A stretch of 64,000 nt of DNA from Sphingobium trunci (GTDB lineage Bacteria > Pseudomonadota > Alphaproteobacteria > Sphingomonadales > Sphingomonadaceae), in contig NZ_JAKUJY010000006.1 of the NCBI RefSeq assembly GCF_022664535.1, positions 1-64,000 of the forward strand, in the 5' to 3' direction. The position numbers and the translations under genes are program-made. Positions 47,344-64,000 of the stretch are shown in pieces (position 1 is the stretch's first letter; every line of letters starts with the position of its first letter). The notes under the pieces are model-generated. The model worked only from the letters and a program-made list of their open reading frames with translations, was not told where the DNA came from and ran no database searches.

Positions 47344-49749
47344 TCAATATTTGATCCGCGCCTCCACGCCGACGGTGCGCGGCGTGAGCACGGTCTGGCG
47401 ATAATAGCGTACCGCCACGCCATCGTTGACGCCGATCCGCGAGCGATCCTGACCAACGGACACCACCGCATATTTGTCGAAGATATTGTTCGCGAACAGG
47501 CTGACCGAGTATTTGTCCGTTTCGTAGGACAATGCGGCCCGATGGAGGACATAGCTCGGGATCTTGTCGCCATAGCCGCGATCCCAGCCGACCCGCGAGA
47601 TCACGTTGCCGCGATAGGTCGCAGTCCAGTTGGCGCTGAAGCTGCCGTCCGCCATCGGGATGGTGTAGGTCGCGCCCAGGCTTCCCGAATTCTTTGCGGA
47701 GCCCGGCAAACGATCGCCCGCAAGCGCGTCCAACTGGGTGAATTTCGGACGCGTGTCGTAATTGTTAGGCGTGGTGCGGATGGTGATGATGCGGGGCACG
47801 TCCTCGGTCAGCTTGGCGTCGGTATAGGAATAGCTGCCCTGAATGGCCAGTTGCGGCACCGGCTTGAACTGGAAGGATGTCTCGAAGCCCTGCGATTTGG
47901 CCGCGCCGCCGTTCACGGTGATCCCGGTGACGCCGTAATAGGTGGCGGAATCCACCTGAATCCCCTCCCATTTGATGTGGAAAACGTCGAAATTGAACGA
48001 CAGCTTGCGGTCGAACAGCTGCATGCGCACGCCGATTTCCGCATTCCTCGTCTTGTCGGGTCCGTACTGGATTTCGTTCGGCAGGGCGCAGGCGTTCTGC
48101 TGATCGACCGGCACCGGATCCGGGCAGGGAGCGACCCGGTTGGGGCCGCCGATGCGATAGCCCTTGCTGTAGGTGGCGTAGGCCATCAGGTCCGGCGTGA
48201 AATTGTAGGAGGTGTTGAATTTCCACACCCAGCCGTCCTGCTTCGCCTTGCCGCCGGCAGCTTTGACATCATAGGGACTGAGCGGATCGCCCAGCAGCGG
48301 CAACACCAGCGCGCCCTGAATGTCGGACGTATATTTGAAGTAGCGCGCACCGGCGGTCACCTGCCATTGCGGCGTCACCTTGAAAGTGCCTTCGCCGAAG
48401 ATCGCCTTCTCGGTGATCTTCGACTTGGTGTAGCTCACATATTCCAGATCGTCGGGGTTGCCGGTGATGCCATAGAAGTCCGACAGGCCGGGCGTGTGTT
48501 CGGCATAGTCACTATGATATTTCTGCCGGTTGTAGAAGCCGCCGAGCACCCAGCTGAACGGGCCCCCATGGCGCGAGACGAGCCGGATTTCCTGGTTCAA
48601 TTGCTTGCGGCGGCCGTCAAGCTCGTTCCAGCTCGAGAAGGCGGGGAACAATTCATAATCATAGTCGAGATCGAGCAGCAGGTCGGTATTGTCTGACCGT
48701 GATTTTACTCGGACATTGGTATAGGCCGTGGTCGAGACGAGGTCTGCAATGTCCGCGATGTTCGCGTTGATTTCCATGCTGGCCAGGTGCGCGCGGCGGT
48801 TGACCGGCTCCTCGTAACGGCTCGCATTTTCATATTTGCCGGTTCCCAGAACGCCAGCGCTGTTCGACTGCGCACCCTCCGTCTTGGTCCGTTGGAAGGC
48901 GTAGGTGAAGATGACCTTCAAGTCTTCGCTGGTCTGGACGAGCAACTGGTTGCGGGTCGTGAAGGTCTTCTCGAAGTTGAGATCCTTGCGCCGACGCAAG
49001 TTCGCGCCATAGTCCGCCAGAGACACGCTGTCGGGCCCGCTGGGCTGAGGGAGCGAGACGCCTGGTGTCTTGATCAGCAGCGGATAGTCGATGAAGCCCG
49101 GATCGTAATAATAGCCGGTCGCCGAACGGAAGGCGACATGGTCCCTTATCAGCGGAATGTTGATCATCCCGTCGACCTGATAGCCGAAATTGTCCGAATG
49201 GCTCTTGGCATAGCCACGGCCATGCATTTCGCCTTCGAATTCGTCCACGTTCGGCCGGTTCGGAATATAGCGGATCGCACCGGCAAGCGTTCCCAGGCCA
49301 TAGAGCGTGCCCTGCGGGCCGAGCAGCGTTTCGACGCGCTCGATGTCGAGCAGCTTGAAGTCGTAATAGAGCGGAACCTCGCCCAGATAGATGCCGAGCG
49401 AATCGTCATAGTTGACGCCGCCGGAGTCCACATCCGAGGCGTTCAGGCCGCGCAGCACGATCGATCCGGTCGAACCCGGGCCGGTGTCCGAGATCGTCAG
49501 GCCGGGCGTGAAGTCTGCCAGGTCGCGCACATCGTCGATCCGCTGGCGCGCAATCTCATCCGCGCTGATGGCCGAGATGTTGATCGGCGTGTCCATGATC
49601 GTGGTCGCGCGGCGCGTGCCGGTGACGATGATGGCATTGCCGTCATCGGCCACGGCTGCATCCTGCGCCATGGCCGGCAGGGCAAGCGCCGTGCTGGTGA
49701 AGATGGTTGCGGACAGCAGCCCGGCCCTCAATTTCGCGCGATATGTCAT
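47344..49749 (-). CDS. TonB-dependent outer-membrane receptor in the urea/guanidine-type locus
   Basis: This 801-residue protein has a signal peptide (LRAGLLSATIFTSTALALPAMAQ), AIIVTGTRRATT, then a plug (TPINISAISADEIARQRIDDVRDLADFTPGL, IVLRGLNASDV, IERVETLLGPQGTLYGLGTLAGAIRYI). The barrel ends in the aromatic-rich VGVEARIKY. It imports an unknown ligand across the outer membrane. The start at 49749 is chosen because GGGGAAAG precedes it. It follows the hydroxylase gene on the same strand by 196 bases with no terminator seen between them, so the operator at 51001 may control both. It is the left boundary of the putative regulon. Confidence 0.92.
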   Translation of the reverse strand: MTYRAKLRAGLLSATIFTSTALALPAMAQDAAVADDGNAIIVTGTRRATTIMDTPINISAISADEIARQRIDDVRDLADFTPGLTISDTGPGSTGSIVLRGLNASDVDSGGVNYDDSLGIYLGEVPLYYDFKLLDIERVETLLGPQGTLYGLGTLAGAIRYIPNRPNVDEFEGEMHGRGYAKSHSDNFGYQVDGMINIPLIRDHVAFRSATGYYYDPGFIDYPLLIKTPGVSLPQPSGPDSVSLADYGANLRRRKDLNFEKTFTTRNQLLVQTSEDLKVIFTYAFQRTKTEGAQSNSAGVLGTGKYENASRYEEPVNRRAHLASMEINANIADIADLVSTTAYTNVRVKSRSDNTDLLLDLDYDYELFPAFSSWNELDGRRKQLNQEIRLVSRHGGPFSWVLGGFYNRQKYHSDYAEHTPGLSDFYGITGNPDDLEYVSYTKSKITEKAIFGEGTFKVTPQWQVTAGARYFKYTSDIQGALVLPLLGDPLSPYDVKAAGGKAKQDGWVWKFNTSYNFTPDLMAYATYSKGYRIGGPNRVAPCPDPVPVDQQNACALPNEIQYGPDKTRNAEIGVRMQLFDRKLSFNFDVFHIKWEGIQVDSATYYGVTGITVNGGAAKSQGFETSFQFKPVPQLAIQGSYSYTDAKLTEDVPRIITIRTTPNNYDTRPKFTQLDALAGDRLPGSAKNSGSLGATYTIPMADGSFSANWTATYRGNVISRVGWDRGYGDKIPSYVLHRAALSYETDKYSVSLFANNIFDKYAVVSVGQDRSRIGVNDGVAVRYYRQTVLTPRTVGVEARIKY

Positions 49750-49945
49750 GTCTTTCCCCATTTTCGATTGACGTGGCTCGTCTCGGCCCTGTTCCTGCCT
49801 GGTCTGGCGGATTTTGATTTGCGGACCTTTGATTCATGGGCCGACCATCGCTTGGCGGATGTTGTGTCGACGCACATGCTGCTCCCGACGGTCTCAAACC
49901 TCCGTCGAGGCGTTCACTCCCTGAAACCGGTACTTTGCTGGTGGA

Positions 49946-50902
49946 TCAACTGGCCCCAGCCATGGCTTGACTGCGCTTCGTTCTGATCCGGTCGATCAAC
50001 GGCTGGAACGGGAACATGAACTGTTCCCGGATGGACAGGCGCCTCAGATCGTCCTGGCCGACGATCACGCCTTCGCCTTCGCGGTATGTACCCAGGACGC
50101 GATCGATGAGGATCAGCGAATTGGCGTAGTTGCAGCGCGTGCTCTCATAATCCGCCGAATGGTGCAGGCTATGGTGGCGGATGGTGGTGAAGAACAGCGA
50201 GTAGAATTTCGGCGGGTCCGAACGCACATTGGCATGGGCGAAGGTCGATACCACGTTCAGCACGTTGAAGGCGCAGAAGATCGCCGTCGGCGAGAAGTCG
50301 AACAGCGCCACCGCGCTCAGGCTGATGAGGAACAGTTCGATCGGATTGCCCACCGCGCCCTTTGCGGCATTGAGCTGCGTGATGTGATGATGCGGGGCAT
50401 GGGTCAGCCAGAAGGGCGTCCAGTTGTGCATCAGGCGATGCATCCAATATTGGCCGAACTCGATGATGAAGACCACCGCCGCCACCTGTGCCAGCCAGGG
50501 CAGGTGCATCGCCCATGGGGTGGTGATGCCCAGCGATGTCTTGACCCCTTTGAGCGGTTCATCGGCCAATATGCTCGTTGCCCAGGAGATCACGGTGGCG
50601 CTCAGCACCACGTAGAACAGGTCGGTGAAGAATTCACGCCAGTTCATCCGCCAGCCGGCATGCCGCTCATGCACGAACTCCAGTCCCAGCACGATCAGCG
50701 TGATGAGCGCCGAGGTGACGACGATGGTCCAGTCATTGCCCGTCACCTCTTTCGGCGCGAACGCCCAGAAGGCGATGATGATGGCGACGAAGGCAGGCGG
50801 AACCAGGTTGAACAGCGTCTGCTTCCAGCCGACGTCGCTGCGGTCTGCGGCAACCGGTCCCTCCTCCGGGACAAGCGTGTTGCGGACTGGCAGTTTCTCC
50901 AT
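49946..50902 (-). CDS. Sterol desaturase / fatty acid hydroxylase family membrane di-iron enzyme
   Basis: This 318-residue protein has four to five membrane segments and the clustered histidines of the family: HRLMH, HAPHHH and HHSLHH. These bind two irons for oxygen-dependent hydroxylation or desaturation of a lipophilic substrate. The start at 50902 (MEKLPVRNT) follows GGATAGGGGG. An operator-like TATTAC-N14-GTATTA lies 99 bases upstream, matching sites before the importer and catabolic genes. Its substrate is unknown; context suggests it may act on an alkyl-guanidine or alkyl-urea type compound, which is inference only. Confidence 0.88.
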   Translation of the reverse strand: MEKLPVRNTLVPEEGPVAADRSDVGWKQTLFNLVPPAFVAIIIAFWAFAPKEVTGNDWTIVVTSALITLIVLGLEFVHERHAGWRMNWREFFTDLFYVVLSATVISWATSILADEPLKGVKTSLGITTPWAMHLPWLAQVAAVVFIIEFGQYWMHRLMHNWTPFWLTHAPHHHITQLNAAKGAVGNPIELFLISLSAVALFDFSPTAIFCAFNVLNVVSTFAHANVRSDPPKFYSLFFTTIRHHSLHHSADYESTRCNYANSLILIDRVLGTYREGEGVIVGQDDLRRLSIREQFMFPFQPLIDRIRTKRSQAMAGAS

Positions 50903-51000
50903 CGAAAACCCCCTATCCAGGCCAGTTGACCAGCCTGTCGCTAAAAGATTCTCTCTCCTTTTCCCGTCGCTCTGCCAGGCGATGGAAACCATGCTATGGA

Positions 51001-51026
51001 TATTACGTTTCTCGTCAAGCGTATTA
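51001..51026. promoter_or_regulatory. NikR-like operator candidate, site A (hydroxylase / TonB receptor)
   Basis: TATTAC at 51001-51006 and GTATTA at 51021-51026 are inverted half-sites separated by 14 bases, with one mismatch to the consensus TATTAC-N14-GTAATA. The site lies 99 bases upstream of the hydroxylase start. Its spacing is the same as in three other sites of this locus. Confidence 0.65.
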
Positions 51027-51177
51027 ATTCAGGGCGCAAGCTTTTGGCGGTGAGGCGCATGAAACCGCGCAAGAGGGTCGTTGCGTAACAAGGGCGTAAC
51101 ACGATTCCGCTGCCCGGAGCGACCAAGATTCCGGGCGAAGATCATCACTGATTCGCCATCGGACGCATGATGTCGTG

Positions 51178-52191
51178 TCAGGAGTAGCGATAGGGATTCC
51201 GGTCGATGGTGGTCGTCCCGCGCGTCTGGTTGCACAGGAATACCGTGCCGGTGAAATAGATGCCGGGTGCGGTGATCTTCTGCGCATAGGCCCAGGCCTC
51301 GCGCAGTTGCTGCACGGTCATCTGCACGGGCGCTTCATCGGGCTGGTAGGTCATGCCATAGGCATAGTCCTCGCCATCCTTGCTGATTTCCACATGGCAT
51401 CCCATCACATGCGTCACCGGATGGGTGTCGCAAAAGTCGATCAGGCGCTTCATGCTGTCGAACCACGCCTCCCAGAAGCTGATGTAGCAGCGCCCGCGAT
51501 AGAACATGTCGCCGGTGTAGAGGATCTGCGTATAGCTGTCATAATAGGCGAATTCCGAGACGACGTGCCCCGGAGAACCCCAGATCAGGATGTCGCGCCC
51601 GCCCAGGTCGAGCGTCACGCGCTCCTCCGGGAAATTGGTCATGCCCCAGAAACCGACCATCTCCTCATGGGTGAGACCCATATAGCGGGTATTGGAGCGG
51701 TCGGCGAACTGGTTGGTCGCGGCATAATGGTCCGCATGCAGATGGCTGAACGCGACCAGCAGTTCCAGGCTGGCAGGATCGCGGCCGTTGCGGCGGCACC
51801 AGTCCTCGATGCACTGGTCGACGACGCCGCGCAGATCCCAGTCGTTGCGCAACTGCACGAAACCCTCGTCGAGGAGCAGGACGCGTTCATTGCCGAAATA
51901 AAGCGGGGCGAACGGCGCCTCGTAGCTATAGGCCTTGTTCTGGCGCAGGATGGCCGTGTGCGGATTGTACCAATGGACCTGCACGGGTGGATCGTCATTG
52001 TCCATGCAGGAGGAGGAACCGCAAATCCACCGTTCCGGGAAGCTGCCGGGGGCGGGCAGGCTGCTCTTGAAGTCGATGGGCGGCGGGAGGGTTGCGGCCG
52101 ACGCCGCATGGGAGAGCGCGTTCAGCGCGCCTCCCGTCAGCGGCACGGCGGCAATGGCGGCGTTGAGCGTCAGGAAAGAGCGTCGATCCAC
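51178..52191 (-). CDS. Metallo-beta-lactamase-fold hydrolase, exported
   Basis: The protein has 337 residues. The N-terminus MDRRSFLTLNAAIAAVPLTGGA is a short Tat-like signal with one RR pair. The metal-binding set of the MBL fold is present: HLHADH in SHLHADHYAAT, His in WGSPGHVVSEF, Asp in LYTGDMFYRG and His in MGCHVEI. It should hydrolyse an ester, amide or lactone-like bond using two metal ions, probably in the periplasm. It lies 31 bases downstream of a paralog and is probably transcribed with it. Confidence 0.88.
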   Translation of the reverse strand: MDRRSFLTLNAAIAAVPLTGGALNALSHAASAATLPPPIDFKSSLPAPGSFPERWICGSSSCMDNDDPPVQVHWYNPHTAILRQNKAYSYEAPFAPLYFGNERVLLLDEGFVQLRNDWDLRGVVDQCIEDWCRRNGRDPASLELLVAFSHLHADHYAATNQFADRSNTRYMGLTHEEMVGFWGMTNFPEERVTLDLGGRDILIWGSPGHVVSEFAYYDSYTQILYTGDMFYRGRCYISFWEAWFDSMKRLIDFCDTHPVTHVMGCHVEISKDGEDYAYGMTYQPDEAPVQMTVQQLREAWAYAQKITAPGIYFTGTVFLCNQTRGTTTIDRNPYRYS

Positions 52192-52222
52192 GACAGGTCT
52201 CCTCTATATCGAAAATCTTTGA

Positions 52223-53308
52223 TCAGAAAGGACGCGGCGGGTTGATGTTGGGTACGCCCTCGGGCCAGACGGACGTGCGCTGGTCAGGGCTGACGCCGTT
52301 GAACAGGACGAAGTCCGGGCGGATCAGCATCATGTCCTTGCCCTTCACTTCGCGGGCATATTGCAGCGCCTCGTCGATCAGGTCCGGCGTCATCTCCAAG
52401 ACCCGCTCGAAGGGTTTGTAGGTCGCGAAACGGGGATAATATTTGCCTGGCACGAACATCATCTCGATATGGCCGCCGAGCAGCCATTTGACCGGATTGG
52501 TGGCGGCAAAGGCCTTGAGCCGTTCCAGCGATGCGATGAAATCGCCATCATTGCCGATATTGATCTTGCCGGGAAACAGCAGGTCGCCGGTGAACAGAAA
52601 GTCGCAATAGGGATCGTAGAAAGTCACGCCGTCGCGATGGGCTCCCGGTGTCGGGATCACGGAGATCACCCGGTCGCCAAGATCGATCCGGCCCGTGCCC
52701 GAAGGCCAGTTCGCAAGGCCATGGAAACGCTGCATCAGTGCCAGCGGCTTGGGCACTATGCTGGTATCCGGCCGGCCCGCGAACTGCGTCAGGCCCTGAT
52801 TTTGCGCGATATCCTCCCCCGACGTGAGTGCGATCGTCAGGGGCGGGATGCGGCGCCCGCGGGCCTTCGCCCAGCGAGCGATGATGGCATCGACCGTCTC
52901 CCGCAAGGGATAATGGCGGGCGTTCGCGGTGGCGCCGCTATCGATCAGCAGGGCGCCTTTGTTGCCGAACAGCAGATAGGTGAAGGGGGCTTCCCAATGC
53001 ACGCAGACATTCTGGCGCAGGACGAAGCTGTCCTCATTATACTGAACCACCTGCACGCGCGGATCGCGATTCTTGGCCGCGACATTGGAGCCATAGGTCC
53101 AGCGTAAGGAAAGGCTGCCCGGCGCCGGGCCATCGCAGGCATAATCATGGACGACCGGTTTGCCGCGGTGGAGCGGCATCGCGCTGTCCGTGTTGCGCAC
53201 GCCCGGCGGATTATATCCCAGCGCCGGGTTTCCGTTGGGATAGGCGCGCCCGGTGGCGGCCTGGGAACTGCCGGAAAAGCCGGTGTTGCGACCTGGATTC
53301 TGTGCCAA
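52223..53308 (-). CDS. Metallo-beta-lactamase-fold paralog lacking the HxHxDH motif
   Basis: This 361-residue protein is clearly related to its downstream neighbour; compare RVQVVQYNEDSFVLRQNVCVHWEAPFTYLLFGNKGALLIDSG with the neighbour's VQVHWYNPHTAILRQNKAYSYEAPFAPLYFGNERVLLLDEG. It keeps a His in PTPGAHRDGV, Asp in LFTGDLLFPG and His in LGGHIEM. Where HxHxDH should be it reads TSGEDIAQNQG, so three or four metal ligands are missing. No signal peptide is obvious. It may be a non-enzymatic partner, a single-metal enzyme or a binding protein. It is divergent from nikR1, and an operator-like site lies 63 bases upstream. Confidence 0.85.
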   Translation of the reverse strand: MAQNPGRNTGFSGSSQAATGRAYPNGNPALGYNPPGVRNTDSAMPLHRGKPVVHDYACDGPAPGSLSLRWTYGSNVAAKNRDPRVQVVQYNEDSFVLRQNVCVHWEAPFTYLLFGNKGALLIDSGATANARHYPLRETVDAIIARWAKARGRRIPPLTIALTSGEDIAQNQGLTQFAGRPDTSIVPKPLALMQRFHGLANWPSGTGRIDLGDRVISVIPTPGAHRDGVTFYDPYCDFLFTGDLLFPGKINIGNDGDFIASLERLKAFAATNPVKWLLGGHIEMMFVPGKYYPRFATYKPFERVLEMTPDLIDEALQYAREVKGKDMMLIRPDFVLFNGVSPDQRTSVWPEGVPNINPPRPF

Positions 53309-53370
53309 GAAATACCCCCGGAATGATGGGGAGCCGGAAAGACCGGCCCGACATCGAATCAGGATAGAGA

Positions 53371-53396
53371 TATTACGAAGCTCAGCAATGTTAATA
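53371..53396. promoter_or_regulatory. NikR-like operator candidate, site B (hydrolase pair / nikR1)
   Basis: TATTAC at 53371-53376 and TTAATA at 53391-53396 form half-sites with the 14-base spacer of the family, with one mismatch. It lies in the divergent region 63 bases before the hydrolase pair and 138 bases before nikR1, so it could control both directions. Confidence 0.65.
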
Positions 53397-53406
53397 TTTT
53401 TTTGCA

Positions 53407-53490
53407 GTAACGATATCGTTCACCGTCGATCAGCGGGTGTATCATCGGTCAGCTTTGGTATAGGAGGGGCGTCCTGCCGCTTGCAGGACG
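53407..53490. promoter_or_regulatory. Palindrome and leader hairpin in the nikR1 upstream region
   Basis: AACGATATCGTT at 53409-53420 is a perfect 12-bp palindrome, a possible second operator. Further on, CGTCCTGC (53470-53477) pairs with GCAGGACG (53483-53490) across five bases, a hairpin 43 bases before the nikR1 start. Neither resembles a riboswitch known to me. Confidence 0.4.
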
Positions 53491-53533
53491 ACATAGGTTT
53501 CGAGGATATGATGATGAGTGAGAGGGGCGCAGC

Positions 53534-54043
53534 GTGAGTAACGATCCTGCCAGTCTGGCCCGGCTTAGCATGAGCCTTCCCGCCGACCTGTTCCGCCAGC
53601 TTGATGCGATGGTCGAGGAACGCGGTTTGCCTTCCCGCTCACAGCTTATCGCCGAACTGATCCGCCACGCGCTGGCCGAACATGAGGCTTTGACGCGCCC
53701 GGAGGAGATGCTCGCGGGTACGATCACCTTGGTCTATCGCGGCGACAAGGGCCGCGTGCGCCACCAGCTTGCCCAGAGCCAGACGGACTATCTGAAGGAA
53801 GTCATCTCATCGCAGCATGTTTTTCTGGAAGACGATCAGTCGCTGGAAGTGCTGCTGGTGCAGGGACCGGCGGAGCGGTTGAAGGAATTGTGCGATGCAC
53901 TGCGCGCCATTCGCGGCGTGCACCAGCTCAAGCTCGTGACCACGACGGCGCTGCTGCCGCCGCTGCACGAGCAGGACGGGATCGCACAGCATCGCTCTGC
54001 GGCAAGGCATGGCCTGCAAACCAAGAAGGACGTGGCGGCCTGA
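53534..54043 (+). CDS. NikR-like ribbon-helix-helix regulator 1
   Basis: This 169-residue protein has an N-terminal ribbon-helix-helix (ARLSMSLPADLFRQLDAMVEERGLPSRSQLIAELIRHALAEH) that binds DNA as a dimer. An ACT-like tetramerisation domain follows (LAGTITLVYRGDKGRVRHQLAQSQTDYLKEVISSQHVFLEDDQSLEVLLVQG). This is the NikR architecture, but aligned to E. coli NikR only His87 is kept. His76 appears as Thr, His89 as Phe and Cys95 as Ser, so the high-affinity nickel site is absent. It should sense something else, plausibly a pathway metabolite. The GTG start follows GAGAGGGG. A close paralog is encoded 3 kb downstream. Confidence 0.9.
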   Translation: MSNDPASLARLSMSLPADLFRQLDAMVEERGLPSRSQLIAELIRHALAEHEALTRPEEMLAGTITLVYRGDKGRVRHQLAQSQTDYLKEVISSQHVFLEDDQSLEVLLVQGPAERLKELCDALRAIRGVHQLKLVTTTALLPPLHEQDGIAQHRSAARHGLQTKKDVAA

Positions 54044-54131
54044 CGGGCGTGGGCGCTGGCAGCGCTGCCTTATGGGTGCTCGGGGGGTATAAGTCGGCGT
54101 CTATGGCATGGAGGGAAGGGAAAGCGACAAG

Positions 54132-54157
54132 TATTACAAAATGATCACGACGTAATA
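54132..54157. promoter_or_regulatory. NikR-like operator candidate, site C (ABC importer)
   Basis: TATTAC at 54132-54137 and GTAATA at 54152-54157 are perfect inverted half-sites around 14 bases. The site lies 59 bases before the start of the substrate-binding protein gene, and its right half overlaps a TAATAAT that could serve as a -10 element. Repression by occlusion is the simplest reading. Confidence 0.72.
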
Positions 54158-54216
54158 ATTTCGATGGACAACCCCTCGAATCGCAGCAATGTTGCACCAC
54201 GAAAGGGGACCGAGTC

Positions 54217-55296
54217 ATGATCGTTTCGATCCGCAACATTGCCAAAGCCGGGCTGATCGCCGGAATGCTGCTCACCGCCGGCTGCTCGCAGACGCCGGGC
54301 GAAGCGCCCAAGCATAGCGAGTTCAACATCGGATGGTCGATCTATGCGGGCTGGATGCCCTGGCCCTACGCCCAGCAGGCCGGCATCGTGAAGAAATGGG
54401 CCGACAAATACGGCATCAAGATCAATGTGGTCCAGGTCAACGACTATGTTGAATCGGTCAATCAATATACTGCGGGCAAGCTGGATGGCGTGACTGTCGC
54501 CAACATGGACGCGCTGACCATTCCGGCTGCGGGCGGCAAGGATACCAGCGCGATCATCGTGGGAGACTATTCCAACGGCAATGACGGTATATTGATGAAG
54601 GGGGCCAGCGATCTCAAGGCGATCAAGGGCCAGTCCGTCAATCTCGTCGAGCTTTCCGTCTCCCATTATCTGCTGGCACGCGGGTTGAACTCGGTCGGGC
54701 TGCAGCTCAAGGACGTGAAGACGGTCAATACGGGCGACGCCGATATCGTCGGCGCCTTCGCCAGCCCGGATGTCAAGGTTGCGGTGGCCTGGAATCCGCA
54801 GCTCAACGCCATGAAAGAACAGCCGGGTGCGAAGCAGGTCTTCAGTTCGGCCGATATTCCGGGCGAGATACTGGACCTGCTGTGCGTCGATACCGCGACG
54901 CTCAAGGCGAATCCCAATCTGGGCAAGGCGCTGGCGGGCATCTGGTATGAAACGACCGCGCTGATGGTTCGCCAGGACGCCGAAGGCAAGGCAGCCCGCG
55001 CCGCGATGGCCAAGCTTGCAGGCGCGACGCCGGAGTCCTTCGACAAGCAGCTCACGACCACCTATCTCTATTCGGACCCCAAGGCCGCCGTGGCGGCGAC
55101 CGATGCCCCCGCCCTGATCACGACCATGACCCGCGTGCGGGACTTCAGCTTCTCCAAAGGCCTGTTCAAGGGCGCCGCTTCGGCGGACGCGGTGGGCATG
55201 GCCTTTCCCGGCAACAAGACGCTGGGCGACGCGCACCATGTGACGTTGCGTTTCGACGACAGCTTCATGAAGCTGGCAGCCGACGGCAAGCTGTGA
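54217..55296 (+). CDS. ABC importer substrate-binding lipoprotein, urea-carboxylase-associated type
   Basis: This 359-residue protein has a lipoprotein signal (AGLIAGMLLTAGC, lipidated Cys23). The NMT1/SsuA-like periplasmic binding fold follows: FNIGWSIYAGWMPWPYAQQAGIVKKWADKYGIKINVVQVNDYVESVNQYTAGKLDGVTVANMDALTIPAAGG. It matches the putative urea ABC transporter binding proteins encoded beside urea carboxylase. The permease gene follows after 88 bases. The ligand may be urea, guanidine or a related compound; the enzymes downstream favour guanidine. Confidence 0.92.
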   Translation: MIVSIRNIAKAGLIAGMLLTAGCSQTPGEAPKHSEFNIGWSIYAGWMPWPYAQQAGIVKKWADKYGIKINVVQVNDYVESVNQYTAGKLDGVTVANMDALTIPAAGGKDTSAIIVGDYSNGNDGILMKGASDLKAIKGQSVNLVELSVSHYLLARGLNSVGLQLKDVKTVNTGDADIVGAFASPDVKVAVAWNPQLNAMKEQPGAKQVFSSADIPGEILDLLCVDTATLKANPNLGKALAGIWYETTALMVRQDAEGKAARAAMAKLAGATPESFDKQLTTTYLYSDPKAAVAATDAPALITTMTRVRDFSFSKGLFKGAASADAVGMAFPGNKTLGDAHHVTLRFDDSFMKLAADGKL

Positions 55297-55384
55297 GCGG
55301 GTTGGCCAGACCATGCGCATGGACGCATGGCTGGCGCCGCAACATCCGTCGGCAGCGGATTTTCACTAGGTGGGATCAAGAAGA

Positions 55385-56979: not shown

Positions 56980-56991
56980 AAGAGAATGGGC

Positions 56992-57471
56992 ATGGGCTCC
57001 GAAACCACAGGTCTGGCGCGACTCAGCATGAGCCTGCCTGCCGATCTCTTCAGGCAACTCGACATGATGGTGGCCGAACGCGGCCTGCCCTCCCGATCGC
57101 AGCTCATCTCCGAACTGATCCGCCACGCGCTGGCGGAACATGGCTCGCTCATGCGGCCCGAAGAGACGCTCGCGGGGACCATCACCCTGATCTACCGGGG
57201 CGAGCGGGGCCGGGTGCGGCACCAGCTTTCCCAGACGCAGGCCAGCTACCTCAAGGAAGTGATCTCCTCGCAACATGTCGTGCTGGAGGACGACCAGTCG
57301 CTCGAAGTCCTTCTGGTGCAGGGGCCGGCCCTGCGGCTGAAGGAACTGTGCGACGCCATCCGTCGCGTGCGCGGGGTGCAGCAGCTGGAACTGGTCACCA
57401 CCACCTCCCTCCTGCCGCCGCTGTACGATCAGAGCGGCGATGATTTCAAAAGCATCGGAGCGCATTCATGA
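56992..57471 (+). CDS. NikR-like ribbon-helix-helix regulator 2
   Basis: This 159-residue paralog of the regulator 3 kb upstream is near-identical in the DNA-binding part (LARLSMSLPADLFRQLDMMVAERGLPSRSQLISELIRHALAEH) and in the ACT-like domain (SSQHVVLEDDQSLEVLLVQG). The same three nickel ligands are replaced. The shared DNA-binding residues imply the two recognise the same operator. I prefer the ATG at 56992, although 56986 is possible. The stop overlaps the start of the first DUF1989 gene as ATGA, so regulator and catabolic genes form one operon. Confidence 0.9.
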   Translation: MGSETTGLARLSMSLPADLFRQLDMMVAERGLPSRSQLISELIRHALAEHGSLMRPEETLAGTITLIYRGERGRVRHQLSQTQASYLKEVISSQHVVLEDDQSLEVLLVQGPALRLKELCDAIRRVRGVQQLELVTTTSLLPPLYDQSGDDFKSIGAHS

Positions 57472-58292
57472 CCGAGACCCTGGCCGATCCGCTTGCGGCG
57501 CGCGACCATGCCCGCGCGATGGCGGGCACTGTCGTCGAGAGCATGCCGTTCCTGCCTCCGGTGGCCGATGATCTTCCCGAGGGAGTCGGTCCCGAAGATC
57601 ATGTGTGGGAGGAAATCATCGCCGCGGGCGGCTATGCCACGCGGCGCCTTTCGCGCGGGTCGCGGCTGCGGCTGATCGACCTCCGGGGCGATGCCTGTGC
57701 CTCGATCCTCATCTTCAACGCCGAGATGCCGACCGAGCGGCTCAATATCGCCGACACGGTCAAGGTCCAGTGGAACGCCTATCTCGGCGCGGGCAAGCTG
57801 CTGCTGTCCGACATGGGCCGCGTGCTGATGAGCATCGTCATGGACGACGCGGGCACGCACGACGCCTTGTGCGGCACCTCCAACCCTGCCACCAATGCCG
57901 CGAAATATGGCGAGGGCAGCAACAGCGGTTCCTATCCCAGCGGACGCGACAGGTTCCTGCTCGGTGTGGCCAAGCATGGGTTGGGGCGCCGGGACGTGCA
58001 TCCCTGCGTGACGCTGTTCAAGGGCGCGAGGATTGAAGCCGACGGCAGCATCACGCCTGATGTCGGGCCCTTTGCGCCGGGCCGCAGCATCGTCCTGCGC
58101 GCGGAGATGGACGTGATCCTGGTCATTGCGAACGTGCCCCATGTGCTCGATCCGCGCGCGGAATGGAGCGTTACGCCGCTGCGCGCCTCGGCATGGCGTG
58201 GGCCGGTGACGGGCGAGGATGACCCGGTGCGCACGGCCACGCCGGAGGGCCTGCGCGCCTTCAGCAATGTCGAAGACTATTTCCGCCGCTGA
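57468..58292 (+). CDS. Urea amidolyase associated protein UAAP1 (DUF1989), putative carboxyguanidine deiminase subunit
   Basis: This 274-residue DUF1989 protein has GGYATRRLSRGSRLRLIDLRGDACASILIFNAEMPTERLNIADTVKVQWNAYLG, HDALCGTSNPATNAAKYGEGSN and DVHPCVTLFKGARIEADGSI. In bacteria that use guanidine, paired DUF1989 proteins form carboxyguanidine deiminase, which turns carboxyguanidine into allophanate and ammonia. The pairing here with UAAP2, the carboxylase and allophanate hydrolase matches that pathway. Activity is inferred from family and context. Confidence 0.9.
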   Translation: MTETLADPLAARDHARAMAGTVVESMPFLPPVADDLPEGVGPEDHVWEEIIAAGGYATRRLSRGSRLRLIDLRGDACASILIFNAEMPTERLNIADTVKVQWNAYLGAGKLLLSDMGRVLMSIVMDDAGTHDALCGTSNPATNAAKYGEGSNSGSYPSGRDRFLLGVAKHGLGRRDVHPCVTLFKGARIEADGSITPDVGPFAPGRSIVLRAEMDVILVIANVPHVLDPRAEWSVTPLRASAWRGPVTGEDDPVRTATPEGLRAFSNVEDYFRR

Positions 58293-58307
58293 AAGGACGC
58301 GAGGTTC

Positions 58308-58943
58308 ATGAACACCGACCCCCACCTGTCCGGCCTTTCCGGCACCGTCATCCACGACGTCGTCGTTCCCGCCCGCGCGCCCTGGCTGCACCATGTCATG
58401 GCCGGGCAGAGTCTGCGGATCGTCGACCTGGAAGGCAATCAGGCCGTGGATTTCCTGCTCTATTCCGCCGCGGACGATGCCGAGCGCTACAGCGCGCAGG
58501 ACACGGTTGCGGCACAGGGCAATCTGTTCCTGCGCGAAGGCACCAAGCTGCTGTCCAACGAGGGTAACGCGCTGATGACCATCACCGCCACCTCGGTCGA
58601 CTATCATGACACGATCGGCGGCGCCTGCTCCTGCGAGTCCAACACGCTGCGCTACGGCCACCATACCAAGGCAGAGCATGCCTGCGTCGAAAATTTCCTG
58701 GAAGCCAATCTCAGCGAAGGGCGCGGCAAGCGGGATATCGTTTCCAACATCAACTTCTTCATGAACGTACCGGTGGAGCCGGACGGGTCGCTCGGCATTG
58801 TCGACGGCATTTCCGCGCCGGGACTGACCGTCGATTTGCGGGCGGAAATGGACGTGATCGTCGTCGTCTCCAACTGTCCGCAGATCAACAACCCCTGCAA
58901 CGGCTTCAATCCTACCCCCGTCCGCATGATCGTCAGCGCATGA
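58308..58943 (+). CDS. Urea amidolyase associated protein UAAP2 (DUF1989), putative carboxyguanidine deiminase subunit
   Basis: This 211-residue DUF1989 protein has LHHVMAGQSLRIVDLEGNQAVDFLLYSAADDAERYSAQDTVAAQGNLFL, YHDTIGGACSCESNTLRYGHHT and VVVSNCPQINNPCNGFNPTPVR. The His/Cys-rich motifs probably form a metal site. It is related to the preceding protein but shorter, and the two likely form a heteromeric enzyme. Its stop overlaps the carboxylase start (ATGA). A GAGGTTC precedes the ATG. Confidence 0.9.
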   Translation: MNTDPHLSGLSGTVIHDVVVPARAPWLHHVMAGQSLRIVDLEGNQAVDFLLYSAADDAERYSAQDTVAAQGNLFLREGTKLLSNEGNALMTITATSVDYHDTIGGACSCESNTLRYGHHTKAEHACVENFLEANLSEGRGKRDIVSNINFFMNVPVEPDGSLGIVDGISAPGLTVDLRAEMDVIVVVSNCPQINNPCNGFNPTPVRMIVSA

Positions 58944-61900
58944 GCTTCGATACCGTCCTGATTGCGAACCGCGGGGCGATCGCCACCCGGATCATCCGAA
59001 CGCTGCGGCGCATGGGCCTGAAATCGGTCGCCGTCTATTCGGAGGCGGACGAAGGGTCCAACCATGTGTCGGAAGCGGACGAGGCCGTGTTCATCGGCGG
59101 CGCCAAGGCGTCCGAAAGCTATCTCAACATTCCGGCGATCATCGCGGCCGCGAAGAAGACCGGGGCAGGGGCCATCCATCCCGGCTACGGTTTCCTGGCC
59201 GAGAATGTCGAGTTCGCGGAATCCTGTGCCGATGCCGGGATCGTCTTCGTCGGCCCGACGACGGACAATATCCGCACCTTCGGCCTCAAGCACAGCGCCC
59301 GTGCGCTGGCGGCCGCCCATGATGTGCCGCTGGCGCCGGGCACCGGCCTGCTCACCGACGAGGATGAGGCGGTCGGCGCCGCCGGCGCGATCGGCTATCC
59401 GGTCATGCTCAAGGCGACGGCCGGTGGCGGCGGCATCGGCATGCGCATATGCGAGGATGAGGCGCAACTGCGCGAAGGCTTCGCCAGCGTGAAACGGCAA
59501 GGCCAAAGCAATTTCGGCGATGCCGGGGTCTTCCTGGAACGCTATATCGGGCGGGCGCGCCACATCGAGGTGCAGTTGTTCGGCGATGGCGAGGGCCGCG
59601 TCATGGCGCTCGGCGAACGCGACTGTTCGCTCCAGCGGCGCAACCAGAAGGTGGTGGAGGAAGCGCCTGCGCCCCTGCTGCCCGATGCCGTGCGCGCCGC
59701 CCTGTTCGCCGCAGCCGTCCGGCTCGGCAAGGCGGCCAAATATCGATCTGCAGGTACCGTCGAATTTCTCTACGACGCCGATCGTGCGGAGTTCTTCTTC
59801 CTGGAGATGAACACCCGCCTGCAGGTCGAGCATGGCGTGACCGAGGCGGTGATGGGCATCGACCTTGTCGAATGGATGGTGCGCGGCGCGGCGGGAGACT
59901 TCGCTTTCCTCGATGGTCCCGCGCCCAGTCCCAAAGGGCATTCGGTGCAGATGCGCCTCTATGCCGAGGACCCGTCGCTCGATTACCGACCGACCTCCGG
60001 CACGCTGACGGCGCTCGAATTTCCCGCGAATATCCGGGTCGAGACATGGTGCTCGGCGGGCAGCACGGTCAGCGCCTGGTACGATCCGATGCTCGCCAAG
60101 CTCATCGTCCACGCACCCACCCGCGCCGAGGCGGTCGAGGCGGCGCAGCGCGCGCTCGATGTCAGCCGGGTCGACGGCATCGAAACCAATCTGCGCTGGC
60201 TGCGCGATGTCGTGCGCACGCCTGCCTTCACCAGCGGCGATGTTTCCACCCGCGTACTGGATGGCGTGGTCTATGGTCCGCGCTCGATCCGCGTGGTCAG
60301 CGGCGGCACCGCGACAACGGTGCAGGACTGGCCGGGCCGTCAGAAGCTGTGGGCCGTGGGGGTGCCGCCCTCCGGTCCGATGGACGATCAGTCCTTCCGT
60401 CTCGGCAACCGGCTGCTGGGCAATCCGGAAGGAACCGCAGGCCTGGAAGCCACCGTCACCGGTCCGACACTGGCCTTCGTCGCGCCCGCGCGAATCTGCC
60501 TGATGGGTGCGGATTTCGGCGCGACGCTGGACGGCCAGCCGGTGGCGCGGGGCGTTCCGATCGATGTGGGCGCGGGCCGGACGCTGGCGCTGGGCCGCGC
60601 GTCGAGCGGCGGCATAAGGGGCTATATCCTGTTCGCGGGCGGGCTGGACATCGCGCCTTATCTCGGCAGCCGCAGCACGTTCGAGCTTGGCCAGTTTGGC
60701 GGCCACGCCGCCCGCCGCCTGCTCGCGGGGGACACCCTGCATCTGGGCGATCAACTGGCCGGCGACGCAGCCGGGGTGGCGTTGCCCGCCGTCGCGCTTC
60801 CGGACATCGCCCATGAATGGACCCTGCGCGTCCTCTATGGCCCGCACGGCGCCCCTGACTTCTTCACCGGTCAGGATGTCGAGACCTTTCTGGGCGCGGA
60901 ATGGAAGGTCCATTACAACTCCAACCGCACCGGCGTGCGCCTGATCGGTCCCAAGCCGCGCTGGGCGCGCACCGATGGCGGCGAGGCGGGACTTCATCCC
61001 TCCAACATCCACGACAATCCCTATGCCATCGGTGCGGTGGACTTCACCGGCGACATGCCGATCATATTGGGCCCTGACGGCCCTTCGCTTGGAGGGTTCG
61101 TCTGCCCGTTCGTGGTGATCGCCGCCGACCGCTGGAAGATCGGCCAGCTCTCGCCCGGCGACAGGCTGCGCTTCACCCCCGTCACCATCGAGGATGCGGC
61201 CGCCGCCGACGCGGCGCAGCGTGAACTCGTCGCGATGGGGGCTGTACCTCCGCCCAGCCCGGTGCGAACGGTGGAGGCGCTGTCGCCGATCCTTGGCGAG
61301 ATCGCCGAGGGACCGGGCCGTCCCCGCACCGTATATCGCCAGCAGGGCGACCGGAACATCCTGGTCGAATATGGCCCGATCGTTCTCGATATCGAGCTGC
61401 GCATCCGGGTCCATGCACTGATGAGCGAGCTGGAACGTCTCGCCGCGCCCGGCATTATCGATATCGTGCCGGGCATCCGCTCGTTGCAGCTGCACTTCGA
61501 CGGCGCGACGATGAACCAGCAGGCCGCGCTTGCCATGCTCATGGCGGCGGAGGAACGGCTGGGCGACCTGGAAGACTTCACCATCCCGTCGCGCATCGTC
61601 CATCTGCCGCTGAGCTGGCGTGATCCCGCCACCATCGAGACGATCGACAAATATATGGCGACGGTCCGCGACGATGCGCCATGGTGCCCCGACAATATCG
61701 AGTTCATCCGTCGCATCAACGGCTTGCCAGACGTGGCCGCGGTGGAAAATCTGATATTCGAGGCGAACTATCTCGTCATGGGCCTGGGTGACGTCTATCT
61801 GGGCGCGCCGGTGGCGACCCCTGTGGACCCGCGCCACCGCCTCGTCACCACCAAATACAATCCTGCGCGCACCTGGACGCCGCCCAATGTCGTGGGCATC

Positions 61901-62548
61901 GGCGGCGCCTATATGTGCATCTACGGCATGGAGGGGCCGGGCGGTTACCAGCTGTTCGGGCGCACCATTCAGGTGTGGAACACCTATCGCCAGACCGACG
62001 CCTTCATCGAGGGCAAGCCCTGGCTGCTGCGTTTTTTCGACCAGATCCGCTTCTATCCGGTGAGCGCGGAGGAGCTGGTCGAGTGGCGCCGCGAATTTCC
62101 GGCGGGGCGCCGCTCGATCAGGATCGAACCGTCCGAATTCCGGCTCGCGGACTATCGTGCCTATCTGGCCGACAATGCGGCGGGCATCGCGCAGTTCGAA
62201 CAGCGCCGGCAGGCTGCCTTCGACGAGGAACGGGCCGAATGGCAGCGCCGGGGCGAATTCGACCATGCGGCCGATCTCAACGAGGCGGACCTGCCAGCGG
62301 AGGAGGCAATCGAACTGCCCGACGGTTCGGACCTCGTCGAAGCGCCCTATGGCGGCAGCGTCACGCGCCTGCTCGTCGCAGCAGGCGATACCGTTGCTGC
62401 GGGCGACAGGATCGCGGTGATCGAGGCGATGAAGATGGAATGTCTGGTGGAAAGCCCTGGCAGCGGAACGGTCGAGGCGCTCTACATGCGCGTGGGCCAG
62501 TCGCTCCAGCCTGGCGCGCCGATGCTGGCGCTGCGGAGGCATGCATGA
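58940..62548 (+). CDS. uca: Biotin-dependent urea carboxylase, probably guanidine carboxylase
   Basis: This is a 1202-residue multidomain enzyme. Residues 1 to about 450 are a biotin carboxylase (IANRGAIATRIIRTL, ATP-grasp loop KATAGGGGIGM, RDCSLQRRNQKVVEEAPAP, EMNTRLQVEHGVTE). A KipA-like then a KipI-like carboxyltransferase region follows (TVQDWPGRQKLWAVGVPPSGPMDDQSFRLGNRLLG; YRQQGDRNILVEYG), with GGAYMCIYGMEGPGGYQLFGRT near the active site. The C-terminal biotinyl domain carries Lys1165 in EAMKMEC. It carboxylates urea to allophanate or guanidine to carboxyguanidine at ATP cost. The adjacent DUF1989 pair favours guanidine. Gene starts and stops overlap on both sides. Confidence 0.93.
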   Translation: MSFDTVLIANRGAIATRIIRTLRRMGLKSVAVYSEADEGSNHVSEADEAVFIGGAKASESYLNIPAIIAAAKKTGAGAIHPGYGFLAENVEFAESCADAGIVFVGPTTDNIRTFGLKHSARALAAAHDVPLAPGTGLLTDEDEAVGAAGAIGYPVMLKATAGGGGIGMRICEDEAQLREGFASVKRQGQSNFGDAGVFLERYIGRARHIEVQLFGDGEGRVMALGERDCSLQRRNQKVVEEAPAPLLPDAVRAALFAAAVRLGKAAKYRSAGTVEFLYDADRAEFFFLEMNTRLQVEHGVTEAVMGIDLVEWMVRGAAGDFAFLDGPAPSPKGHSVQMRLYAEDPSLDYRPTSGTLTALEFPANIRVETWCSAGSTVSAWYDPMLAKLIVHAPTRAEAVEAAQRALDVSRVDGIETNLRWLRDVVRTPAFTSGDVSTRVLDGVVYGPRSIRVVSGGTATTVQDWPGRQKLWAVGVPPSGPMDDQSFRLGNRLLGNPEGTAGLEATVTGPTLAFVAPARICLMGADFGATLDGQPVARGVPIDVGAGRTLALGRASSGGIRGYILFAGGLDIAPYLGSRSTFELGQFGGHAARRLLAGDTLHLGDQLAGDAAGVALPAVALPDIAHEWTLRVLYGPHGAPDFFTGQDVETFLGAEWKVHYNSNRTGVRLIGPKPRWARTDGGEAGLHPSNIHDNPYAIGAVDFTGDMPIILGPDGPSLGGFVCPFVVIAADRWKIGQLSPGDRLRFTPVTIEDAAAADAAQRELVAMGAVPPPSPVRTVEALSPILGEIAEGPGRPRTVYRQQGDRNILVEYGPIVLDIELRIRVHALMSELERLAAPGIIDIVPGIRSLQLHFDGATMNQQAALAMLMAAEERLGDLEDFTIPSRIVHLPLSWRDPATIETIDKYMATVRDDAPWCPDNIEFIRRINGLPDVAAVENLIFEANYLVMGLGDVYLGAPVATPVDPRHRLVTTKYNPARTWTPPNVVGIGGAYMCIYGMEGPGGYQLFGRTIQVWNTYRQTDAFIEGKPWLLRFFDQIRFYPVSAEELVEWRREFPAGRRSIRIEPSEFRLADYRAYLADNAAGIAQFEQRRQAAFDEERAEWQRRGEFDHAADLNEADLPAEEAIELPDGSDLVEAPYGGSVTRLLVAAGDTVAAGDRIAVIEAMKMECLVESPGSGTVEALYMRVGQSLQPGAPMLALRRHA

Positions 62549-64000
62549 ACGCGCCCGACCGCCTGAGCGCCCTTGCCATCGCCGCGGCCGTCAATGCCGG
62601 TGAGACCACTGCCCTCGCCGTGGCGGAAGATGTCTATGGCCGCATCGATGCCTATAATGCCGTTCAGCCTCATATATGGATCAGTCGCGCCAGCCGCAGG
62701 GATCTGCTGGCCGCTGCGCGCGCCGTCGATGCCCGTGTCGCGGCGGGAGAGCAACTGCTGCTGGCGGGTGTGCCTTTCGCGGTGAAGGACAATATCGATG
62801 TCGCCGGTTTCGAGACGACGGCCGCCTGTCCCGCCTTCGCCTATGAGCCGGAGGGCAATGCCGGCGTGATCGATCGCCTGCTGGCGGCGGGCGCGATCTG
62901 CGTCGGCAAGACCAATCTCGACCAGTTTGCGACCGGCCTCAACGGCACGCGCAGTCCCTATGGCATTCCGCGCAACGCCTCCAACCTCGCCTATGTCAGT
63001 GGCGGGTCGAGTTCCGGTTCGTCCGTCGTGGTCGCGGCGGGGCTGGTTCCCTTCGCGCTCGGCACCGACACCGCGGGTTCCGGGCGCGTGCCTGCCGCGT
63101 TCAACCATCTGATCGGCTTCAAGCCCACCAAGGGCCGCTGGAGCACGCGCGGGCTGGTCCCCGCCTGCCGCACGATAGACTGCATCACCGTCTTTACCGA
63201 CGACACGGCCGACGCCCGGCTGGTGGACAGGGTGGTCGCGGGTTTCGATGTTGCCGACCCTTATTCCAGGTCGCTGGCCGACCGCGCGCTGCGCGTGAAG
63301 CGGATCGGCGTGCCGCGTCGCGACCAGCGCGTCTGGTTCGGTGATGGCGAATCCGAATATCTCTATGACCGTGCCTTGGAAAAGCTTGCGGCGCTGGGCG
63401 AGATTGTCGAGATCGACTTGGCCCCGCTGCTCGAAGCGGCGCAGCTGCTTTACGGCGGGCCCTGGGTGGCGGAGCGAACCGCCGCGATGGAGGCGATTCT
63501 GGCCAGCAACCCGCTCTCCATCGATCCCACCGTGCATGATGTCGTGGCGCCGGGTGCGTCGATCAGCGCCGTCGAACTGTTCAACGGCATCCATCGCATG
63601 GCCGCTCTCAAGCGTCAGGCCGACCTGATGTGGGACGCGATCGACATGCTGGCCTTCCCCACCACCGGGACGACCTATCGCGTCGTCGAGATGCTGGCCG
63701 CTCCGATGGCGCTCAACAGCAATCTGGGACTGTACACCAATTTCGTGAACCTGCTCGACATGGCGGCGGTTGCCGTGCCCGCAGGTGTTCGCGCCAATGC
63801 CACCGGATTTGGGATCACCCTGATCGGCCCGGCCGATACCGACCGCGCCCTGCTCGACGCGGCGGACGCCTATCTCGCGGCGGCGGATCTTCCGCCGCCG
63901 CCGCCACTTGACCTGGAGGGAAAGATGCAGACCGTAAAGCTTGCCGTCGTCGGCGCACATCTGAAGGACATGCCGCTGCACTGGCAGCTGACCTCCCGCG
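62545..64000 (+). CDS. atzF: Allophanate hydrolase, truncated by the window edge
   Basis: The visible 485 residues contain an amidase-signature domain. Lys81 is in FAVKDNIDV, the cis-Ser is in GGSSSGSS (residues 153-160) and the nucleophile Ser179 is in GTDTAGSGR. The beginning of the C-terminal domain appears near the edge (KLAVVGAHLKDMPLHWQL). The enzyme splits allophanate into ammonia and carbon dioxide, the last step of the urea/guanidine route. The ATG overlaps the carboxylase stop as ATGA, and GGAGG stands upstream. The remaining C-terminal part lies beyond the window. Confidence 0.94.
   Translation, partial: MNAPDRLSALAIAAAVNAGETTALAVAEDVYGRIDAYNAVQPHIWISRASRRDLLAAARAVDARVAAGEQLLLAGVPFAVKDNIDVAGFETTAACPAFAYEPEGNAGVIDRLLAAGAICVGKTNLDQFATGLNGTRSPYGIPRNASNLAYVSGGSSSGSSVVVAAGLVPFALGTDTAGSGRVPAAFNHLIGFKPTKGRWSTRGLVPACRTIDCITVFTDDTADARLVDRVVAGFDVADPYSRSLADRALRVKRIGVPRRDQRVWFGDGESEYLYDRALEKLAALGEIVEIDLAPLLEAAQLLYGGPWVAERTAAMEAILASNPLSIDPTVHDVVAPGASISAVELFNGIHRMAALKRQADLMWDAIDMLAFPTTGTTYRVVEMLAAPMALNSNLGLYTNFVNLLDMAAVAVPAGVRANATGFGITLIGPADTDRALLDAADAYLAAADLPPPPPLDLEGKMQTVKLAVVGAHLKDMPLHWQLTSR

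Follow-up and report, generated by a model that had tools for sequence, protein, structure and literature searches.

A probable guanidine regulon with NikR-like regulators that appear to have lost their nickel site in Sphingobium trunci

Among the closest described relatives of the locus discussed here is the guanidine carboxylase pathway (Gca, CgdA/B and AtzF) with its ATP-binding cassette (ABC) importer. An orthologous operon on a Rhizobium laguerreae plasmid (locus L228) contains the importer, UAAP1, UAAP2, carboxylase and allophanate hydrolase genes; a guanidine-I riboswitch precedes the importer, and UAAP1 is preceded by one of the guanidine-II class. The NikR proteins of E. coli, Helicobacter and Pyrococcus offer another point of comparison. 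According to PMC7055735, E. coli NikR binds nickel through three residues of one subunit (His87, His89 and Cys95) together with His76 from the neighbouring one, and its operator is GTATGA-N16-TCATAC. A further one is an operon of Vreelandella boliviensis in which, according to PMC12508155, the MgdH dioxygenase and the MgdL lyase free guanidine from methylguanidine. Here we analyse positions 47344..64000 of a 64,000-nucleotide stretch (the window), which comprises positions 1 to 64,000 of contig NZ_JAKUJY010000006.1 from Sphingobium trunci, whose genome measures 4.67 Mb. We consider it probable that this locus forms a single regulon through which guanidine, and probably guanidine-bearing compounds as well, are acquired and used, under a NikR-family repressor without a nickel site. 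That the genes form a regulon and serve guanidine use is near certain, repression by the NikR-like regulator is likely, and the trimming of a larger guanidino compound by the left-hand genes is our leading guess.

The gene content given in a preliminary description of the window was recovered in place by Pfam and NCBIfam scans. Transcribed leftward are genes for a TonB-dependent outer-membrane receptor, a membrane protein of the FA_hydroxylase family, and two metallo-beta-lactamase (MBL)-fold proteins, MBL1 and MBL2; transcribed rightward are those for NikRa, the ABC importer, NikRb, UAAP1, UAAP2, a urea-carboxylase-type enzyme and allophanate hydrolase. The same description had noted four operator-like elements of identical geometry, and the window indeed holds exactly four matches, at 11 or more of 12 positions, to TATTAC-N14-GTAATA and none at 18 other spacings. 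Operator 1 (51001..51026, 11/12) lies before the hydroxylase and TonB genes and carries a -35-like TTGACG between its half-sites. Operator 2 (53371..53396, 11/12) lies between MBL2 and NikRa, and operator 3 (54132..54157, 12/12) lies 59 bp upstream of the gene for the importer's substrate-binding protein. Operator 4 (56949..56974, 12/12) is located inside the 3′ coding end of the importer ATPase gene, before the series NikRb, UAAP1, UAAP2, carboxylase and allophanate hydrolase, and it too has TTGACG between the half-sites. Operator 1 is only 8 bp from the listed ATG of the hydroxylase, for which reason translation probably begins at an internal ATG near 50902.

The operators were first scored as GTATTA-N16-TAATAC and the pattern was sharpened to TATTAC-N14-GTAATA by comparing relatives, across which the half-site takes the form (G/A/T)TATTAC. 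The longer pattern at three mismatches is an uninformative setting, with 129 sites in the S. trunci genome and 859 for the reversed control. With at most one mismatch to the sharpened pattern, the genome has five sites, the four in the window and one before a second gene of the FA_hydroxylase family (site and gene within contig C56:67632-68673, the gene at contig position 67693), whose product is 39.6% identical to the first. A reversed, uncomplemented control pattern gave four sites against these five, and the genome-wide count by itself is thus no more than chance. Chance palindromes are rejected on other grounds: all five sites fall inside 17 kb on one contig, each is near a gene of the set, and relatives have such sites too. 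A generic inverted-repeat finder returned one unrelated pair as the only shared repeats in the window.

For the relatives, we gathered 15 loci from the same genus, 61 named MBL1 loci from species-representative genomes and some further loci. These sets lack phylogenetic independence: MBL1 was the criterion by which the 61 named loci were picked, and 51 of them are non-acidobacterial, including one (L101) that is labelled Poribacteria and resembles a Croceicoccus contig. Statements on co-occurrence and on the absence of NikR refer to the stretches examined, many of which ended at contig edges. The motif was counted in 77 loci (1.58 Mb), after 11 presumed duplicates had been dropped by hand and the window had been replaced by the longer contig from its own genome. 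At 11 or more of 12 positions there were 179 sites with a spacing of 14, compared with 0-9 at each of 12 other spacings. They precede NikR (47), the hydroxylase (38), the importer (20), the second hydroxylase (5) and other listed genes (12), or lie between MBL2 and the importer's substrate-binding protein (33) or between MBL2 and NikR (11), and 13 have no listed gene start within 330 bp. Upstream of the first importer gene, a site of at least 10/12 to the longer pattern was present in 66 of 74 stretches, some genomes being counted twice, and its distance to where the substrate-binding protein was matched to begin is mostly 54-65 bp; the other eight comprise six siteless LysR loci from five genomes and two loci (L117 and L217) with a site further off.

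The position of these sites relative to promoter elements suggests how they may work. Read towards the target, TTGAC, TTGCG or TTGCC occurs at one register inside the spacer in all 38 hydroxylase sites, all 12 TonB sites, all four sites before a small gene of secreted type (smallS), 46 of the 60 sites for NikR and 17 of the 45 for MBL2. Because the operator spans the -35 box at such promoters, the sequence suggests repression.

The candidates for the protein that reads these sites are the paralogues NikRa (53534..54043, forward strand) and NikRb (56986..57471, forward strand), both with ribbon-helix-helix (PF01402) and NikR_C (PF08753) domains over cut-off. In a MAFFT alignment with P. horikoshii NikR, the positions equivalent to His76, His87, His89 and Cys95 read T, H, F and S in NikRa, so that H78, H91 and C97 in the P. 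horikoshii numbering are replaced by T, F and S, and A, H, V and S in NikRb. The same pattern is found throughout the 68 distinct proteins from sphingomonad guanidine loci, the two from the window included: all 68 keep only the His87 equivalent and lack three of the four ligands. All four ligands are present, as H, H, H and C, in three NikRs from other families of Alphaproteobacteria. Judged by these residues, both NikR-like proteins of the window have lost the nickel site. A small tree, which includes eight other NikR sequences and takes one solved structure as its outgroup, unites the 70 guanidine-locus proteins in a single clade with a support of 0.998. NikRa, which alone was scanned with the curated NikR models, falls below their cut-offs (TIGR02793, 65.2 against 175.45; NF003381, 102.7 against 105). 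A canonical NikR as regulator was considered and rejected, as the genome holds just two NikR_C proteins at E<=1e-8, both ligand-less. In the same genome, where these two are the only NikR_C proteins found, a perfect canonical palindrome, GTATGA-N16-TCATAC, stands at contig C16:17481-17508.

The enzymes on the right-hand side, all encoded on the forward strand, point to guanidine. The importer consists of a substrate-binding protein of the guanidine/urea type (54217..55296; TIGR03427, 525.9 bits against a cut-off of 333.9), a permease (55370..56200; PF00528) and an ATPase (56197..56979; PF00005). UAAP1 (57468..58292; TIGR03425, 302.2 bits against 205.95) and UAAP2 (58308..58943; TIGR03424, 333.5 bits against 284.7) follow NikRb, and we take them to be the two subunits of carboxyguanidine deiminase. 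Next come the carboxylase (58940..62548; 1766 bits to TIGR02712, a model named urea carboxylase) and allophanate hydrolase (62545..64000; TIGR02713, 575.6 bits against 511.05), which runs past the window to contig position 64314. PMC11410670 gives a criterion for the carboxylase substrate: an Asp at K. lactis position 1584 and, separating guanidine from urea carboxylases, Asp rather than Asn at 1330. In the window protein, GLGDVYLG and GAVDFTGD align to K. lactis Asp1584 and Asn1330 and supply Asp at both. Among 57 carboxylase loci, 56 have both residues and the remaining one has Asp at 1330, its other residue being unread. The carboxylase is by this signature of the guanidine type, and of the guanidine/urea carboxylation pathway put forward in the preliminary description the guanidine half stands and urea drops out, rejected as the substrate on the diagnostic residues.

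The regulator follows this pathway closely. Among 397 genomes of the family, the NikR-like profile finds 51 at E<=1e-20 and UAAP2 is over cut-off in 56; when the two lists were compared by hand, all 51 lay within the 56. The five UAAP2 genomes without NikR have a LysR gene beside the importer and no operator. This LysR is 66-74% identical to one near the second hydroxylase in the S. trunci genome (contig C56:65333-66271; L039 3334-4272). Among 385 genomes sampled across the class, the regulator profile finds two besides S. trunci itself, one (G343) in the same family and one (G382) in another. Each of the 15 regulator loci from the same genus has UAAP1, UAAP2, carboxylase and allophanate hydrolase.

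The places of the operators resemble those of riboswitches elsewhere. An Rfam scan of the window gave no riboswitch over the gathering score, its sole match being a tRNA, and no guanidine riboswitch reached that score in the 15 same-genus loci or in five LysR loci; L151, L214 and L228 served as positive controls. L151 and L214 come from another alphaproteobacterial family, in which two of 55 genomes sampled, from two genera (G382 and G914), have a NikR-like gene. At both loci this gene is divergent to the importer with an operator between them (11/12 and 12/12), and a guanidine-II riboswitch precedes the UAAP genes. The window and many relatives have operators both before the importer and before NikR/UAAP. 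The sequences look like a stepwise takeover of the riboswitches by NikR operators, the order of events being read from few loci. Locus L151 also has creatininase-like and glutamine-synthetase-like genes, in frames as read, between the importer and the UAAP genes (14093-16335), and their presence there suggests creatinine or creatine as a guanidino source at that locus.

The left-hand genes, all on the reverse strand, are tied to this core by their company as well as by operators. The TonB receptor (47344..49761) scores over cut-off with PF00593 and PF07715, and the hydroxylase (49946..50992) belongs to PF04116; its score with the OlsE model NF052566 is 73.5, far below the cut-off of 475. Of the 51 non-acidobacterial MBL1 loci, 48 carry one or more of the core genes UAAP1, UAAP2 and carboxylase; a TonB gene of at least 45% identity is present in 46 and the hydroxylase in 37. 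The TonB gene is also present in 12 of the 15 same-genus regulator loci. Co-occurrence with the core in related genomes, without which the preliminary description would count as refuted, is thus found, and the operators recur there as well. The part of its interpretation that joins the left-hand genes and the carboxylation pathway in one regulon is borne out by this co-occurrence and by the recurring operators, and the left-hand genes are frequent but optional members. Beyond the end of the window, the set continues with a beta-propeller gene, which comes after allophanate hydrolase in this genome, and with the second hydroxylase and its own operator. The propeller lies between MBL1 and the hydroxylase in many relatives; its matches are DUF6923, the Vgb lyase (below cut-off) and designed or surface-layer propellers. 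No 2-oxoglutarate (2-OG)/Fe(II) dioxygenase of the MgdH family was found among the ten window proteins scanned in Pfam. Adjoining the TonB receptor (window positions 45601-47208) is a gene that we read as a TPR-sulfotransferase; it accompanies 40 of the 51 non-acidobacterial MBL1 loci, and two operator sites were found before it.

MBL1 (51178..52191) and MBL2 (52223..53308) both match PF00753. MBL1 retains the metal motif HxHxDH as HLHADH, and H150, H152, D154 and H155 are invariant in 11 of 11 aligned proteins, whereas its paralogue MBL2 has TSGEDIAQN in that place, though its fold match is over cut-off. MBL2 accompanies MBL1 in 51 of 51 non-acidobacterial and nine of ten acidobacterial loci. 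Four same-genus loci without the pair (L046 and L051-L053) carry, next to the TonB gene, a single distant MBL whose motif, HSHGDH, is complete. Within the family, MBL1 was found (E<=1e-120) in 27 genomes out of 397, and 26 of the 27 are UAAP2-positive; the one that is not, G730, has a listed completeness of 92% and matches the bin of L088, which is from a lichen metagenome.

The signal peptides of the pair point to a periplasmic location. MBL1 begins with a predicted twin-arginine signal, MDRRSFL followed by a hydrophobic stretch, and MBL2 has no recognisable signal peptide. By a simple in-house rule applied to 60 pairs of MBL1 and MBL2, 53 were classed as twin-arginine translocation (Tat)/none, two as none/none, one as Tat/Tat, two as Sec/Sec and two as none/Tat. 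Both none/none pairs (L064 and L092) show a twin-arginine start that the rule missed, and the Tat/Tat class of L120 comes from an upstream alternative start, so that the non-acidobacterial loci and four Acidobacteriota combine a twin-arginine MBL1 with an MBL2 lacking an acceptable signal, three cases being decided by reading. In the other Acidobacteriota, L112 and L113 have Sec-type signals on both proteins, and L115 and L116 have an RRALF start on MBL2 and none on MBL1. Tat transports folded proteins and can take a signal-less partner along, which Sec cannot. Such complementary export signals are the pattern expected of an obligate folded heterodimer, and the sequences accordingly suggest that MBL1 and MBL2 form one in the periplasm. 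A structure model of MBL1 was moderate (predicted local distance difference test, pLDDT, 66.7) and matched MBL-fold beta-lactamases and flavodiiron cores generally; we set structure search aside as a guide to the substrate, since these general matches name none.

The link between the pair and guanidine extends to a second phylum. In Acidobacteriota, a carboxylase over cut-off is present in eight of ten MBL1 genomes and in 0 of 118 others sampled, a base rate obtained at E<=1e-300 with at most five scored candidates per genome and a sample that is not matched by order. At a ninth MBL1 locus (L111), a carboxylase cut by the contig end is beside the MBL pair and has both Asp residues. No NikR match occurs at the acidobacterial MBL loci. 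A propeller homologue (27-37%) stands beside UAAP1 in six of the eight acidobacterial carboxylase loci, a figure without a background rate, as propellers are common.

The following mechanism could account for these features. The regulator would bind the palindrome over the -35 region and repress, and cytoplasmic guanidine or a close derivative would release it. The TonB receptor would then import a guanidino compound, from which the hydroxylase, a periplasmic MBL1-MBL2 heterodimer and the beta-propeller protein would free guanidine, MBL2 having been carried through Tat by MBL1. The ABC importer would bring the guanidine into the cell, where the carboxylase, UAAP1/2 and allophanate hydrolase would convert it to ammonia and CO2. 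In evolution, NikR operators may have taken the places of the guanidine-I and then the guanidine-II riboswitches of an ancestral operon while the ligand pocket of a nickel sensor was rebuilt for guanidine; the putative series runs from Rhizobium, with both riboswitches, through the other family, with a NikR operator and guanidine-II, to the sphingomonads, with NikR operators at both places. The combination of a guanidine-sensing NikR-like factor in place of two riboswitches with a complete route from outer membrane to ammonia, including periplasmic release of guanidine from a larger natural compound by a Tat-exported MBL heterodimer, the membrane hydroxylase and the propeller is a tentative proposal, to which we give a little less than even odds.

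Several observations weigh against the regulon as we read it. Concerning the operators, 18 of the 77 loci lack a site altogether, and acidobacterial and LysR loci are among these. There is no TTGAC-type peak at the register in question in 65 importer sites and five second-hydroxylase sites, and repression is therefore less clear there; a conserved TA-containing, -10-like block after the spacer is seen only in the hydroxylase, TonB and MBL2 classes. As for the regulator, five other NikR-family proteins of the same genus (L033-L036 and L038) read H, L/V, R and S, so the loss of three of the four ligands is not peculiar to guanidine loci; one of the five (G017:C38; L056) has none of the window's genes nearby. 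These five proteins were found as weak matches and have a histidine-rich tail. The L151 and L214 regulators of the other family keep two of the four ligands, H89 and H91 in the P. horikoshii numbering. That guanidine is the regulator's ligand is judged from position and company, and we rate it from about even to somewhat likely. The left-hand genes are unevenly distributed: MBL1 is missing from 30 of the 56 UAAP2 genomes (present in 26), and just six of the 15 same-genus regulator loci have the MBL pair and seven the hydroxylase (at least 58% identity). In the eight acidobacterial carboxylase loci, the first Asp is present in all and a text pattern found the second in four. Distant MBL1 relatives, 37-43% identical, occur on Streptomyces and Bradyrhizobium plasmids, and the two of these stretches that are annotated, L225 and L226, contain no guanidine genes. 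The Bradyrhizobium relative (L226 3296-13955) is clustered with radical SAM, tryptophan halogenase and cysteine tryptophylquinone (CTQ)-dependent oxidase genes. Any substrate of the hydroxylase, MBL pair, propeller and TonB receptor is putative.

Some of these observations would fit other explanations. In principle, the left-hand genes could serve a separate, co-induced task, for example a nitrogen- or lipid-related periplasmic function, with no trimming of guanidino compounds. The many UAAP2-positive genomes without MBL1 would agree with this, as would the varying positions of the hydroxylase and propeller and the fact that the hydroxylase's one curated match, far below cut-off, is a lipid hydroxylase model. 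Nevertheless, the MBL pair keeps company with the guanidine pathway in Acidobacteriota (8/10 against 0/118), with no NikR match at the MBL loci there, and the propeller homologue is beside UAAP1 in most of the carboxylase loci there (6/8, again with no background rate), and we regard a separate task as unlikely. The names of the family models, urea carboxylase and urea ABC transporter, could alternatively indicate a pathway for urea with a regulator that answers to urea or nitrogen starvation. The Asp at the position that distinguishes guanidine from urea carboxylases in 57 of 57 loci, the presence of UAAP1/2 and the guanidine riboswitches in orthologous operons leave this explanation with hardly any probability.

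It could also be argued that the regulator remains a sensor of nickel or some other metal, whose scarcity turns on a nickel-free guanidine route together with a metal-uptake TonB receptor. Among known TonB-type receptors are fecA3 and frpB4. The NikR-family fold and the E. coli NikR operator geometry favour metal sensing, and the H89 equivalent is kept in all guanidine-locus regulators read, with H91 also kept at L151 and L214. PMC7055735 further places the uptake genes fecA3 and frpB4 under the control of Helicobacter NikR. This explanation is difficult to reconcile with the loss of three of four ligands in 68 of 68 sphingomonad proteins, with the lack of any recognisable nickel enzyme or importer among the scanned window genes behind the operators, and with guanidine riboswitches in the same or an orthologous operon, and it appears quite improbable to us. 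A regulon for guanidine under a NikR-family repressor without a nickel site remains the reading that we prefer.

The cluster itself was likely acquired by horizontal transfer, because its architecture and its carboxylase are nearer to Novosphingobium than to its own genus: there are two NikR copies and no propeller between MBL1 and the hydroxylase, and the carboxylase is 88-90% identical to those of L061-L064 compared with 73-82% for the same-genus loci. A megaplasmid of N. resinovorum matches window positions 47344-64000 with 94% covered at 82.5% identity. Elsewhere in the window, positions 1390-1735 contain many chance half-site matches at various spacings, unlike the rest; this segment is probably AT-rich and is perhaps the edge of an acquired element.

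We found no description of this combination in the literature covered, which does not extend to the founding pathway papers (Schneider 2020; Sinn 2021) that may mention such regulators; PMC2667541 was consulted and is not about it. At this locus the protein is named, its DNA site is exactly defined, and five promoters are available along with what looks like an evolutionary intermediate, which makes the question of regulation directly testable. If the proposal is true, a metal sensor put to a new use has taken over from RNA switches at the same promoters. Candidate enzymes for the release of guanidine from larger compounds bear on the question of the source of guanidine in the environment, and the locus points to a heterodimeric periplasmic MBL pair.

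The eukaryotic RNA-processing proteins CPSF73 and CPSF100 are also an MBL-fold pair in which one partner has the metal motif and its paralogue does not; MBL1 and MBL2 share this arrangement, but they are bacterial and predicted to be periplasmic, and their fold points to no particular substrate. The regulators have the ribbon-helix-helix and NikR_C domains of NikR, and the operator geometry equals that of E. coli NikR, GTATTA-N16-TAATAC here against GTATGA-N16-TCATAC, with one base changed per half-site. They differ from NikR in the loss of three of four nickel ligands, in their guanidine-gene targets and in NikRa's scores below the curated cut-offs. Enzymes, importer type and gene order are those of the riboswitch-bearing Rhizobium operon, except that the window has NikR-type operators instead of riboswitches and adds a TonB receptor, a membrane hydroxylase, an MBL pair and a beta-propeller protein. 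In this respect the locus resembles the methylguanidine operon of V. boliviensis, which likewise extends a guanidine carboxylase operon by enzymes that first free guanidine from a larger compound, through hydroxylation and then a second protein, those at our locus being candidates. The idea of uptake and trimming fits because that operon adds guanidine-freeing enzymes; there riboswitches control a soluble dioxygenase of the 2-OG/Fe(II) type together with a lyase, whereas the S. trunci locus would use a membrane hydroxylase, an MBL pair and a propeller under a protein regulator.

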